From: Spirosoma radiotolerans
GTDB taxonomy: Bacteria; Bacteroidota; Bacteroidia; Cytophagales; Spirosomataceae
Reading direction: 5' to 3'
Assembly (NCBI RefSeq): GCF_000974425.1
Contig: NZ_CP010429.1
Coordinates: 496,001 to 560,000, forward strand
Length of the DNA: 64,000 nt
This document shows, in pieces, positions 28,677 to 52,472 of this stretch. The translations under genes and the position numbers were made by a program. The notes under the pieces are model-generated. The model did no database searches. It saw only the letters and a list, made by a program, of their open reading frames with translations, and had not been told where the DNA came from. Each line of letters starts with the position of its first letter. Position 1 is the stretch's first letter.

Positions 28677-31223
28677 TCAATATTGGGGTAAGAATACCGT
28701 AAAGGTAGCTCCCCGCCCCGGTGCGCTCTCGGCCGTGATGGCACCGCCATGATTCTCTACTACCCGTTGACAAATGGCCAGCCCAACGCCGGTACCCACA
28801 TATTCACTTTGACTGTGCAGCCGCTGAAAGACCTGAAAGATTCGGTCCAGATACTTGATGTCAAACCCCACACCATTATCGCTGACATTGATCTGATGAT
28901 AAAAGGAAGCGGATTTACTCGGATTTACTCCCTGAGGAAGTTCATTTTGTGGTCGTTGTGAATACGTTATCCGTATAAAAGGCGTCTGGCTCGCCGGGGT
29001 GAACTTGAGCGCGTTAGATACCAGATTCTGAAACAACTGGCCTAACTGCAAGGCGTCTCCGTTGACGAGTGGTAACTCCTCGAGCTGAACCTGAGCTTCG
29101 CGTTCGGTGATCACCAGCGATAAGGTGTCCAATACTTCGGCGACCACCACGCTTAATGAGATAGACCCAAATACTTGCTGACGGGTAGCAATGCGCGAGT
29201 AACTCAACAGATCCCTGATTAATACGGACATGCGCGCGCCGGCTGACTGGATGCGCTGCAAGTAATCTTTTGCCCTTGTATTCAGTTGCGGATCGAGCTG
29301 GTCTGCCAGCAACGTGCTGAACGATTGTATTTTGCGCAGTGGCTCCTGCAAATCATGGCTGGCTACATAGGCAAACTGCTGCAGATTTTCGTTCGAGCGG
29401 GTCAGATCCTGATTGACCAGCGCCAATTCGCCCGTGCGCTCGGCTACCCGCTGCTCTAATTGCTCGGCCAAAAGCCGGTAACGTTGTTCGCTTTGCTGCA
29501 GCTCAATCTCAGCCTGGGTCCGCTCTACGGCGTTGACCAGCCGTTCGCTGACCTCCTCCACCAGCGCCAGTTCAGCAACCGGCCATTGGTGCGCCTGCCG
29601 ATGAATGATAAACAAGATGAGCACCGACCCATTGTTGAGGACCAGCGGTTTGGTAATTACGGCGCCAATCTGGCTTCGTTGGTACCGCTCTTTCTGTTCC
29701 ACCGTGAGGGTAGGGTCATGAACAACATCAGAGAAGATCCTCGTTTGCTCCCGGTCTATCTCATTGAGTATTAGCGCGCAATTAGCCTCTATGGGTTGTT
29801 TTTCTCCTAGCTCTGGTGTAGGCCATAACACCACACGAGGCTGGTCATCTACCGAGTAAACCACTGCCGTCTGGTCGGCGCCGATAGAGACGCCCAACTG
29901 CCTGGCGACATGTTCGTAAATATCATCCAGACTAGTCAGGTTTCGTAGCTGGTCAGCTAGTTGCAGAATAATTGTTTTCTGCTCGTTGCTGCGTTGAATG
30001 AGTTGCTGAGCCAATACTCGCTCCGTTACATCGGTCGCCATGACCAGAATTGCATAAACTTCGCCCTGTTCAGTGGATAAAGGTTTAGCTGTGAAATCGA
30101 TGTAGTACGTTGATGATACCCCATTCATTAACCAGTCGGCCCGTGCGCCCTGAGCCGAATACATCTGGCCATCTTCCAGGATATCGCTTAATCTGGACAA
30201 TAAAGGCTGGCCCTGCAGTCCAGGCAGCACACTCAGCAAGGGCTGACCAATCAGTTGTTTGGGGGTGCCCAGAAAAGCCAGCATGGATTCATTGGCCACC
30301 TGAATTACGAGGCTTTGCCCCACCAACAGGCAGGTGGCTATCGGTGCTTCTTCTACCAGCGCCCGAAAGCGAAGCTCACTGCGTTGCAACTCCTGAAGTG
30401 CGGTGACCTGACGGGTAACATCGGTAGCGGTATGAATGATGCCAAAGACGGTTCCTTCAGGCGAATACACCGGGTTATAGGAAAAGTTGAACCAGGACTC
30501 ATTCCACTGCTTGTCAATTACCACTTTGGGATTATCGAACGCATGAGGAGCTGCTTCTTCCCGATCGTAGACCTGTTGTAGTTGTTCCAGCAAGGGATGA
30601 GGAATTAAATCCGGCAGGACCCCATACAGGGATTGACCTGTCACAGAGGCATCTTTTCCCCAGATCTGCAGCATGGGCGCGTTGACGGTGTCGATCACCA
30701 GATCCCGGCCCACAAACAGGACTGTTGGTGTAGGCGAATTCAGCACAATACTACGGATGCGGGCTTTGCTCGCTTCCAGCTGTTGTTGCACCTGCACCTG
30801 TACGGTAATATCGCGGGCTACTCCCGACAACCGGTAAGCGGCCCCCAGCACATCGACGTAGGCCCGGCCCTGACAGTGGAGCCAGCGAGACGCCCCTGTC
30901 GGCTCTTTTCTGATCCGAAACTGAACGTCGTAATATCCGGTTGAGGAGGGGTCGAAAGCGGTTTTAAGCGCCTGATCGACGAGATGCTGGTCGTCTGGAT
31001 AAATAAGCGCCAGTAAATAGGAGTAAGCCACCACTTCTTTTCCCGGCGAGCCAAACAACTCCTGGCTACGTTCGTCCAACCAGACCTCCTGTTGGCTAAT
31101 ATCCAGATGCCATGTGCCAACCTGGGCTGCCTGCATGGCATACCGCAACCGCTCCTGCTCGGCCTGGAGGTTAAGCAGAAAAGGAAAGGAATCTGGCTGA
31201 TTCAGTTTAAATGGGCCTGGCAT
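28677..31223 (-). CDS. PAS/GAF multi-sensor histidine kinase
   Basis: 848 residues, no membrane helices, so it is cytoplasmic. Domains in order: PAS 1 (about 25-145), PAS 2 (152-272), PAS 3 (285-402), GAF (about 430-570), a coiled coil (570-612), HisKA with H623 in YVASHDLQEPLRKIQ, and HATPase with the N box NLVSNALKF (733-741), DNGVGFD (782-788) and GTGVGLAI (810-817). This is the phytochrome-like class of soluble sensor kinase. No receiver domain or response regulator is adjacent. Fifty bases upstream lies a BLUF photoreceptor gene on the same strand, so blue light is a plausible input. Confidence 0.93.
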   Translation of the reverse strand: MPGPFKLNQPDSFPFLLNLQAEQERLRYAMQAAQVGTWHLDISQQEVWLDERSQELFGSPGKEVVAYSYLLALIYPDDQHLVDQALKTAFDPSSTGYYDVQFRIRKEPTGASRWLHCQGRAYVDVLGAAYRLSGVARDITVQVQVQQQLEASKARIRSIVLNSPTPTVLFVGRDLVIDTVNAPMLQIWGKDASVTGQSLYGVLPDLIPHPLLEQLQQVYDREEAAPHAFDNPKVVIDKQWNESWFNFSYNPVYSPEGTVFGIIHTATDVTRQVTALQELQRSELRFRALVEEAPIATCLLVGQSLVIQVANESMLAFLGTPKQLIGQPLLSVLPGLQGQPLLSRLSDILEDGQMYSAQGARADWLMNGVSSTYYIDFTAKPLSTEQGEVYAILVMATDVTERVLAQQLIQRSNEQKTIILQLADQLRNLTSLDDIYEHVARQLGVSIGADQTAVVYSVDDQPRVVLWPTPELGEKQPIEANCALILNEIDREQTRIFSDVVHDPTLTVEQKERYQRSQIGAVITKPLVLNNGSVLILFIIHRQAHQWPVAELALVEEVSERLVNAVERTQAEIELQQSEQRYRLLAEQLEQRVAERTGELALVNQDLTRSNENLQQFAYVASHDLQEPLRKIQSFSTLLADQLDPQLNTRAKDYLQRIQSAGARMSVLIRDLLSYSRIATRQQVFGSISLSVVVAEVLDTLSLVITEREAQVQLEELPLVNGDALQLGQLFQNLVSNALKFTPASQTPFIRITYSQRPQNELPQGVNPSKSASFYHQINVSDNGVGFDIKYLDRIFQVFQRLHSQSEYVGTGVGLAICQRVVENHGGAITAESAPGRGATFTVFLPQY

Positions 31224-31273
31224 AAAACGCAGAAACTAGCACGTTGAGGAATAACAAAATCCAGGGCTCAGGT

Positions 31274-31696
31274 TTACGACTGGTGATTCAGCTCAAAGAA
31301 CCGTTGTAGCATGCGTAAAATGACTGGCTGATCGGCAGCAAAAGAGCCTTCGGGTTGAGGGTGGTCGGAGATGATGCTGCTCACCTCGTCGTACTGTTGT
31401 GTAGTTAGCGTCTCGTACCCCATGTACCAGTGACTGAACAAACGGTGGCTGATTGGCCGGCTGATGACCGTCCGTACCTGGGTGTGGCGAGGATCCTGCT
31501 GAATACTGTTATACAACTTTGTAACGGCCGTTTGCTGGCCTTCCAGCACCTGTACGATTTGCCCGTTAATATAAAGCAGCACCCCCGTGATGTTCAGTCG
31601 TGCGTTCCTCTCTCGACTGAAAGTGACAATTTCTTGTATGTTGTCTTCGGTAGTCGTTTCGATGGCGGTACTAAAATAAGTAATACAGTAATCCAT
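31274..31696 (-). CDS. BLUF-domain blue-light photoreceptor
   Basis: 140 residues. The first 93 or so form a BLUF domain that binds FAD. The key residues are all present: Y7 (ITYFST), N31 (ERNARLNITG), Q49 (IVQVLEG), and W90/M92 (FSHWYMGY), corresponding to the Tyr, Asn, Gln, Trp and Met of AppA. The photocycle should therefore be intact. The remaining C-terminal helices (about 100-140) have no output enzyme. So the protein is a short, stand-alone BLUF that must signal through a partner. The kinase gene downstream, 50 bases away, is the best candidate. Confidence 0.93.
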   Translation of the reverse strand: MDYCITYFSTAIETTTEDNIQEIVTFSRERNARLNITGVLLYINGQIVQVLEGQQTAVTKLYNSIQQDPRHTQVRTVISRPISHRLFSHWYMGYETLTTQQYDEVSSIISDHPQPEGSFAADQPVILRMLQRFFELNHQS

Positions 31697-31712
31697 CCGT
31701 AGTAGACAACCG

Positions 31713-31736
31713 GTTTAGTCGATTTGTTCACTAAAC
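31713..31736. promoter_or_regulatory. Inverted repeat upstream of the BLUF gene
   Basis: GTTTAGT and ACTAAAC are perfect inverted 7-bp arms, 10 bases apart, ending 17 bases before the BLUF start codon. It may be an operator. Confidence 0.35.
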
Positions 31737-32180
31737 AGAAACATTCTGGTCATTCAAAGTCCCTGTTTTTAATTATAGCGGTTGCTTTCGTAGAACACTT
31801 TACCTCGTTTTCGCAGACAGGATGAGTTTGGGTACTATTTGCAGGTGATTGTAGCAGCACAATCGATAACCGCAAAAAGCCGTACCCAGATAAAGCGTAT
31901 GCGGCTTTTCAACGGATTGATTTTCTTCGTTCACTCATGGGCTGTAAAACGTGCTGCGGGTAAAAGAACCTAAGGGGCTTAGCGCGGTATGGTCATGGGT
32001 TTTCGTACGTATTCGCTACCTTTCTCATCAAAGGCGCTGATGGCCTGTTCGGCATTCGGGCGGAGAGATGAGGAATCTGAACCGAAAATAGGCCCACCGG
32101 CTCGCGGAACTTAGCAGTAGAAAAGTTGCCTTTGTGAGTTATTTAGTCATCAACCGTTTGATTACTCAATCACCTCGTTC
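31737..32180. other. Intergenic stretch between BLUF and Gfo/Idh genes
   Basis: No complete gene. A 43-codon minus frame near 31980-32115 ends in FDEKGSEYVRKPMTIPR and looks like the tail of a lost gene; it has no start. AAAAGCCG and CGGCTTTT around 31880-31910 can form a small hairpin. Confidence 0.3.
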
Positions 32181-51254: not shown

Positions 51255-52472
51255 TCAGTTATTTTTTGGCTGCGATAAACTAACATTAAAGCAGGTTCCA
51301 TCTCCGGGGGATGAGCGAATCGTTAGTGATCCGTTCAGGGTGTCGACAAGGTGTTTGACCAGGGGTAAGCCAAACCCATAGCCCGACTCCCCGGCCGTGC
51401 CCTGACTGGATTGGCCCTGGCCGTTTAAAATGTGGTTGACTTTTTCTTCGGTCATACCCACGCCCGTATCCTGAACCGTAAGGAGGAGCATATTGTGTGA
51501 GCCTTCCATGGTCAGCTTGGTGTTGACTTCAACACGGCCTTCCTGCGGAGTGAACTTGATGGCATTTGAAATTAAATTGCCCACTATCTGAAGCACTTTA
51601 TTGCGCGAAAAGGGCATTAATTCGGTGGAGGAATCTGTGGTAACAGAGAGATGAACCCCTTTTACCAGTGCCTGAGGTGCATATAGCTTTTCTAAATTGT
51701 CCTTCAATTTCAACTGATGGAAAACCTCTTCGGCTGTCTCGTTTTTGTTTTTCCATTTATCGTCCTGGACGAGTATTTCATCCGCCAGTTCGAGCAGCGA
51801 CTTACTGCTCATTTGAATCAGCTCGATAAATTCCAGTATCTCTTTCAGTTTGATACTATCGCCACTGCTGGTGACCAGTTGAGCCATGGTGATGATGCCA
51901 CCCAAAGGCCCCCGAATGTCATGTGCTACCCGTTTACGTGATTCATTCAGTTCAGACGCGTGCCGTTTCAGGTAGTGAATCTCCCGGATGGTATTCAGTC
52001 GGCTAACGATCTCCGCGGCTATAATCCGTAAGAGTTCAATTTTCTCGGGGTCAAGCTCTTTGGGCGTAGTATCGAGTACGCAAAGCGCGCCAAGTGAATT
52101 GCCTTTACTCGACTTGAGGGGTATGCCAAAATAATACCGTAGCTTGGGGTCTTCGGCGACATACCACTGTTTGGCAAATCGTTCATCACTTTGCAAATCC
52201 TTAACCTCAAAGCTATTTTCCTCCAGGATGGTGTATTGACAAACTGATTCTTCACGGGGCATAAACTGTAAATCCAGCCCGTGATTAGTAATTGTCCACT
52301 GCGTGTAGGAGTCAATCAGATTGATTAAGGAAATATCCGTTCCCGTAACTTTGGCCGCCAGGGTAGTCAGATCTTTAAACTTGTCCTGTAAGGATGTGTA
52401 ATCCAGGTCAAAGTCGGCCAGGTCAACAAGACGTTGAAATTCGTTCTCGGCAATTGGATAGCCAGGTTTCAT
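51255..52472 (-). CDS. GAF-domain soluble histidine kinase
   Basis: 405 residues, no membrane helix. A GAF domain (about 20-160) has the block QWTITNHGLDLQFMPREESVCQYTI with a cysteine at 78, which occurs in flavin, haem or redox-sensing members. HisKA follows with H184 in RKRVAHDIRGPLGG, then the HATPase with IVGNLISNAIKFTPQEG (N box), LTVQDTGVGM and GYGFGLPLVKHLV. No receiver or response regulator is next to it, so it is an orphan kinase. The GAF ligand is unknown. Confidence 0.92.
   Translation of the reverse strand: MKPGYPIAENEFQRLVDLADFDLDYTSLQDKFKDLTTLAAKVTGTDISLINLIDSYTQWTITNHGLDLQFMPREESVCQYTILEENSFEVKDLQSDERFAKQWYVAEDPKLRYYFGIPLKSSKGNSLGALCVLDTTPKELDPEKIELLRIIAAEIVSRLNTIREIHYLKRHASELNESRKRVAHDIRGPLGGIITMAQLVTSSGDSIKLKEILEFIELIQMSSKSLLELADEILVQDDKWKNKNETAEEVFHQLKLKDNLEKLYAPQALVKGVHLSVTTDSSTELMPFSRNKVLQIVGNLISNAIKFTPQEGRVEVNTKLTMEGSHNMLLLTVQDTGVGMTEEKVNHILNGQGQSSQGTAGESGYGFGLPLVKHLVDTLNGSLTIRSSPGDGTCFNVSLSQPKNN

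Follow-up and report, generated by a model that had tools for sequence, protein, structure and literature searches.

Through which protein does a photoreceptor without an output domain of its own pass on its signal? The question is raised by a locus within a 64,000-nucleotide stretch of the Spirosoma radiotolerans genome (NZ_CP010429.1, positions 496,001 to 560,000; henceforth the window), where a gene for a BLUF protein lies 50 bp upstream of a histidine kinase gene, both on the minus strand, with coordinates and spacing as reported in the initial annotation. BLUF domains switch via a rearrangement of hydrogen bonds around the flavin. Short BLUF proteins signal via partners, as in PixD-PixE (PMC5812497) and BlsA-Fur (PMC5955987), and for stand-alone BLUF proteins such partners are known in a few cases only (PMC4844311). 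We consider the neighbouring kinase the most likely partner of the window BLUF, the two probably forming a split blue-light sensor kinase. The genome comparisons described here support the proposal that BLUF works by way of the adjoining kinase, and from them we infer its functional part. The features of the locus are collected in Table 1.

Table 1. Features of the BLUF-kinase locus, in coordinates of the window; residue numbers refer to the encoded protein.
Feature	Position	Strand	Basis
Single-domain BLUF photoreceptor, 140 aa, short C-terminal tail	31274..31696	-	Pfam PF04940; photocycle residues; clade of 8
Sensor histidine kinase, probably soluble, without receiver domain, 848 aa	28677..31223	-	Pfam PAS, 2x PAS_4, GAF, HisKA, HATPase_c; catalytic motifs
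Kinase PAS1, aa 25-139, constant N-terminal module	30807..31151	-	Pfam; N-terminal tree 100/100
Kinase PAS2, about aa 163-271, constant N-terminal module	30411..30737	-	Second PAS_4 stretch; boundaries from homologues; N-terminal tree
Kinase PAS3, aa 294-403, optional (absent in 4/8 orthologues)	30015..30344	-	Pfam; alignment
Kinase GAF, about aa 430-567, optional (absent in 4/8 orthologues)	29523..29936	-	Pfam; alignment
HisKA, aa 614-679, phospho-acceptor His623	29187..29384	-	Pfam; motif SHDLQEP; core tree
HATPase_c, aa 722-847	28683..29060	-	Pfam; N, G1, G2 boxes
24-base block upstream of BLUF	31769..31792	-	Identical upstream of G014 BLUF; one match in window, 0 expected

The initial annotation had credited the BLUF protein with a full set of photocycle residues and no output domain, and both statements hold. 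Residues Y7, N31, Q49, W90 and M92 are intact in the window protein and in all 8 orthologues, and PF04940 (E=2.4e-29, 101.7 bits against a cut-off of 25, residues 4-93), a family also matched by all 8 orthologous proteins, is the single domain above the Pfam cut-off. At 140 aa and with no fused output domain, the protein falls among the short BLUFs (about 140-150 aa with a helical tail); its own C-terminal tail is helical in an AlphaFold model of low confidence (pLDDT 52.1, 8-row alignment). Judging from the BLUF family at large, it would be expected to bind flavin and to undergo a photocycle with a red shift of about 10 nm in blue light. The window-type BLUFs (n=8) formed one clade in a phylogenetic tree (SH-aLRT 100). 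A second BLUF gene of the same genome (3972190, plus strand) has no neighbouring kinase.

The adjoining kinase belongs to the HisKA class, with the phospho-acceptor His623 and the N, G1 and G2 boxes all present. It is probably soluble, since its most hydrophobic 19-residue stretch has a mean of just 1.9 and sits inside the catalytic part. At the level of Pfam matches, at which a LOV domain was looked for, its sensory domains are generic PAS, PAS_4 and GAF. There are two PAS_4 stretches, the best being that at residues 294-403, and a weak GAF match (residues 432-565, 25.8 bits against a cut-off of 22.4) that comes after PAS3; Pfam gave no PHY domain, so the PAS-GAF-PHY core of bacteriophytochromes is absent. 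AlphaFold rendered the kinase N-terminus with modest confidence (pLDDT 67.5) as two PAS folds nearest to the tandem PAS of FixL, with fold matches that include Brucella LOV-HK and PpsR PAS structures; the models being too weak for it, no BLUF-kinase interface was drawn from them. A further soluble kinase (405 aa) is encoded elsewhere in the window (51255..52472); its N-terminus is GAF-like and its HisKA match weak (27.6 bits).

The layout of the two genes fits an operon, as had been proposed, because they share a strand, are separated by a short gap and show no terminator-like site within these 50 bp, all features of the sequence alone; the genes flanking the pair on both sides have the opposite orientation. 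The upstream stretch 31697..31816 contains the 24-base block and a palindrome-like element, TCTGTTTAGYGAACA, both common to the window and the Spirosoma oryzicola locus (G014). The block may be a promoter or regulatory element. We rejected TCTGTTTAGYGAACA as the operator of a regulon, given that its sole other perfect match lies inside a coding sequence and that its genome-wide counts (21+21, against 17+14 in the control) show no clear enrichment. No cognate response regulator adjoins the pair in the window. The regulator gene found beside the pair in two other genomes (G014 and G023) was discarded as a cognate partner, having close relatives also in genomes that lack the pair.

To follow the two genes through the 222 genomes of the family, we used a BLUF profile built from five window-type proteins and a kinase profile covering the first ~290 residues. 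The same eight loci stood out with both, at 251-287 bits for BLUF (next score 169) and 527-560 bits for the kinase (next score 365), score gaps that exist partly by construction, since most or all of the scored sequences had gone into the profiles. By identity to the window BLUF alone, orthologues reach 61-73% and all others 49% or less. Both subtypes are present in 8 of the 222 genomes, and neither is found without the other. In 8/8 cases the kinase follows directly after BLUF, in constant order and strand, at a distance of 50-126 bp. Lack of co-occurrence in relatives was part of what, by the initial annotation, would have refuted its idea, and the search returned the opposite. Presence of the pair is patchy (5/36 genomes of the window's genus and three from genus g10), and the copies are under purifying selection, with synonymous differences near saturation (0.74-0.84 per site) and nonsynonymous ones at about 0.19-0.28. 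PAS kinases are abundant, and a BLUF gene might simply have landed beside one of many such genes, with no functional meaning. However, the single-contig genome of the window, 7.03 Mb in size, contains 75 HisKA matches, and a kinase directly downstream on the same strand was found for 8/8 orthologous BLUFs as against none of the ~60 other BLUFs of the family, for which several kb were read on each side. Adjacency by chance is therefore unlikely.

The surroundings of the pair change from genome to genome. Flanking genes of the eight loci are almost wholly unrelated to each other, the exceptions being the response regulator common to G014 and G023, kinase paralogues near G145 and G146, and weak large-family matches. 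The G014 copy is carried by a 329-kb (329,507 bp) plasmid, NZ_CP089539.1. The g10 pairs are split up in the trees: one g10 clade is rejected for the kinase N-terminus (p-AU 0.006), and by BLUF as well as by N-terminus the g10 copy G148 groups with G002, a copy from the genus of the window. From the differing flanks, the plasmid copy and the scatter of g10 pairs in the trees, the BLUF and kinase genes appear to move together, although adjacency and co-transfer can also be explained by shared regulation or linkage. On the plasmid (L031:6162-7073), two tandem BLUF genes are found ahead of the kinase; the second belongs to the paired subtype and the first does not.

The kinase itself is not inherited as one piece. 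The soluble protein with three PAS domains and one GAF domain described by the initial annotation is what the window encodes (its solubility being probable), but this architecture is no constant trait: PAS3 and GAF are present in four of the kinases (844-848 aa; G000, G014, G023, G146) and missing from the four others (541-548 aa; G002, G018, G145, G148). In trees that included the nearest paralogues, PAS1-PAS2 of the eight kinases formed one clade (100/100), whereas the HisKA-HATPase cores were spread over at least three places among paralogues and a single clade for all eight was rejected (lnL difference 52, p-AU 0.0005). The exchangeable catalytic module starts at about HisKA (29187..29384). 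When only the eight taxa were tested, the N-terminal data accepted the BLUF topology (p-AU 0.18) and rejected that of the core (7e-5), while the core data rejected the BLUF topology (6e-5); the BLUF data, 140 residues only, weakly rejected the N-terminal tree (p-AU 0.029) and did not reject the core tree (0.075).

Because PAS1-PAS2 forms one clade, the cores do not, and PAS3 and GAF are missing in half of the kinases, the simplest reading would be that BLUF and PAS1-PAS2 are a constant unit, the output module having been exchanged and PAS3-GAF gained or lost. Such constancy fits a docking site for BLUF in PAS1-PAS2, and we propose this region as the place of docking. Residues that are invariant and subtype-specific in BLUF (T6, T15, V48, S64, R75, I78, Y102, M129 and others) and in the kinase (Y28, Q34, S93, Q118, K153, Q197, V252 and others) are candidates for interface positions, nothing more. 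Linkage combined with recombination of cores could give the same pattern: if paralogous kinases exchanged their cores by recombination, N-terminus and core would part ways as a side effect, and linkage alone would keep the 5' part next to BLUF. In this hitch-hiking, one mobile stretch would carry BLUF together with the 5' half of the kinase gene, the 3' half having been replaced by recombination with paralogues, and no docking would be involved. The many paralogous kinases with alignable cores are in keeping with this, as are the plasmid-borne copy and the dispersal of the g10 pairs.

What weighs against such hitch-hiking is, in part, a second BLUF-kinase pair, found by reading 40 neighbourhoods of order-level BLUFs. 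Seven of the 40, all in family f12, have a soluble PAS kinase (605-646 aa) directly downstream, whose three PAS domains are of a separate kind and whose HisKA-HATPase core also differs from that of the window type. The Hymenobacter-like genus g47, which is likely Hymenobacter (120 genomes, the pair in about 65), has 67 copies of this second BLUF subtype, 65 of them adjacent to the second kinase subtype; in the other two the locus is cut by a contig end, with the first kinase residues visible, and one second-type kinase without a listed partner adjoins a frameshifted BLUF. The second BLUF subtype is present also in genus g132. Among 16 of these loci, flanking genes were common to 8 of the 120 possible pairs of loci. 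A common BLUF clade of the two pair types was rejected (p-AU 0.008), and the pairing was apparently reached twice independently. No kinase lay directly downstream at the class-level BLUF loci inspected outside Cytophagales. With 8/8 and 65/67 adjacencies conserved in mostly non-syntenic surroundings, co-occurrence in practice refutes chance, to which we assign next to no probability. Hitch-hiking fares better, but linkage alone leaves unexplained that neither subtype occurs alone in the 222 and 120 genomes, and the design recurs in a second family; we regard it as quite improbable.

Some other BLUF neighbourhoods were set aside. An open frame of 792 aa had suggested a BLUF-kinase fusion in G545, which turned out to be two separate genes, and CHASE3-like membrane kinases at two order-level loci (L178, L185) lie 1.2 kb from BLUF, too far for a tight pair. 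A reversed kinase-BLUF order in G006 (L097:4928-6853) was not counted, its BLUF having lost the segment with the flavin glutamine Q49, and this protein may be non-photoactive. In G362 (L166:3993-7033) a second-type kinase gene stands between two BLUF genes. Frameshifts interrupt kinase genes of the second type (in G538, G537 and G605) and the BLUF gene of G579 (L249, L250, L251, L259), reflecting either decay or sequencing errors. Multidomain BLUF proteins are encoded in G802, where the domain is part of a 489-aa open frame (L305:478-1947), and in G949 (about 490 aa). Furthermore, ~13 of some 62 kinase-less BLUFs of the family adjoin a single-domain response regulator (L098:4968-5837, L102, L074, L091, L104, L120, L076), which in G020 and G009 follows BLUF after about 37 bp; such neighbours look enriched and resemble PixD-PixE.

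A conserved gene pair need not mean proteins in contact. Both genes could belong to a shared stress or light programme, with BLUF acting on another target and the kinase sensing something else through PAS and GAF. Short BLUFs do have quite different partners (Fur for BlsA, PMC5955987; PixE for PixD, PMC5812497), and the kinase has sensor domains of its own. Yet there are two independent pairings, each exclusive to one BLUF and one kinase subtype, and BLUF is retained jointly with the kinase N-terminus and not with the whole kinase, which points to a physical partner; we judge separate action of the two proteins unlikely. We favour the split sensor kinase because of the intact signatures, the tight adjacency, the joint presence and absence, the co-inheritance of BLUF with the N-terminus and the second independent pairing. 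In such a sensor, BLUF would absorb blue light through its flavin, and the rearranged hydrogen-bond network would change its contact with PAS1-PAS2 of the kinase. The altered contact would raise or lower autophosphorylation at His623 and so shift the flow of phosphate to a response regulator encoded elsewhere, and the kinase may also integrate other signals that reach it via PAS and GAF. In this scheme, the elements that we infer are physical contact, docking on PAS1-PAS2, the sign of regulation and the identity of the regulator. A broader conjecture, which we hold tentatively, is that BLUF and PAS1-PAS2 make up a portable split photosensor cassette, in which BLUF docks on a tandem-PAS adaptor that has repeatedly been attached to different kinase cores, providing a modular blue-light input for two-component signalling in Cytophagales.

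The literature that we searched (Spirosoma, Hymenobacter, kinase operons) gave no description of a BLUF-kinase pair, which is weak evidence, most subscription papers lying outside the search. Both components are of known kinds, a BLUF protein and an established kinase class, and it is their split arrangement that is undescribed in the searchable literature. A conserved BLUF-histidine kinase pair that acts in trans and is present in dozens of Bacteroidota genomes would link blue light to two-component signalling by a new route. The natural variants (with and without PAS3-GAF, and with different cores) are a ready set for mapping the contact, and the pair could possibly serve as a two-part optogenetic input that requires no fusion of sensor and kinase.

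Several known systems resemble the pair in part. In AppA-PpsR a BLUF protein acts on a PAS-domain protein, but AppA exceeds the window BLUF in size and targets a DNA-binding repressor instead of a kinase. YcgF (BluF) and PapB act in trans on a MerR-type repressor (YcgE) and an EAL phosphodiesterase (PapA), respectively. These two systems and BlsA-Fur (PMC5955987) are like the pair as proposed here in having a BLUF that works in trans and differ in the partner, which for BlsA is Fur. LovK, Brucella LOV-HK and other fused photoreceptor kinases share blue light, flavin and a soluble PAS-containing histidine kinase (PMC6798134); there, however, sensor and kinase form one chain, whereas the photosensor of the window pair is a separate BLUF protein. 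BLUF units inside kinases are mentioned in the same review, which says that their characterisation lags (PMC6798134). In PixD-PixE of Synechocystis the partner is a PATAN-CheY receiver-type protein, unlike the PAS-GAF histidine kinase of the window, and PixD forms decamers with PixE. The window BLUF is nonetheless related in sequence to Slr1694 and Tll0078 (E 3e-10 to 6e-12), and the likeness to PixD-PixE would lie in a single-domain BLUF whose in-trans target is a two-component-type protein from the adjoining gene (PMC5812497).
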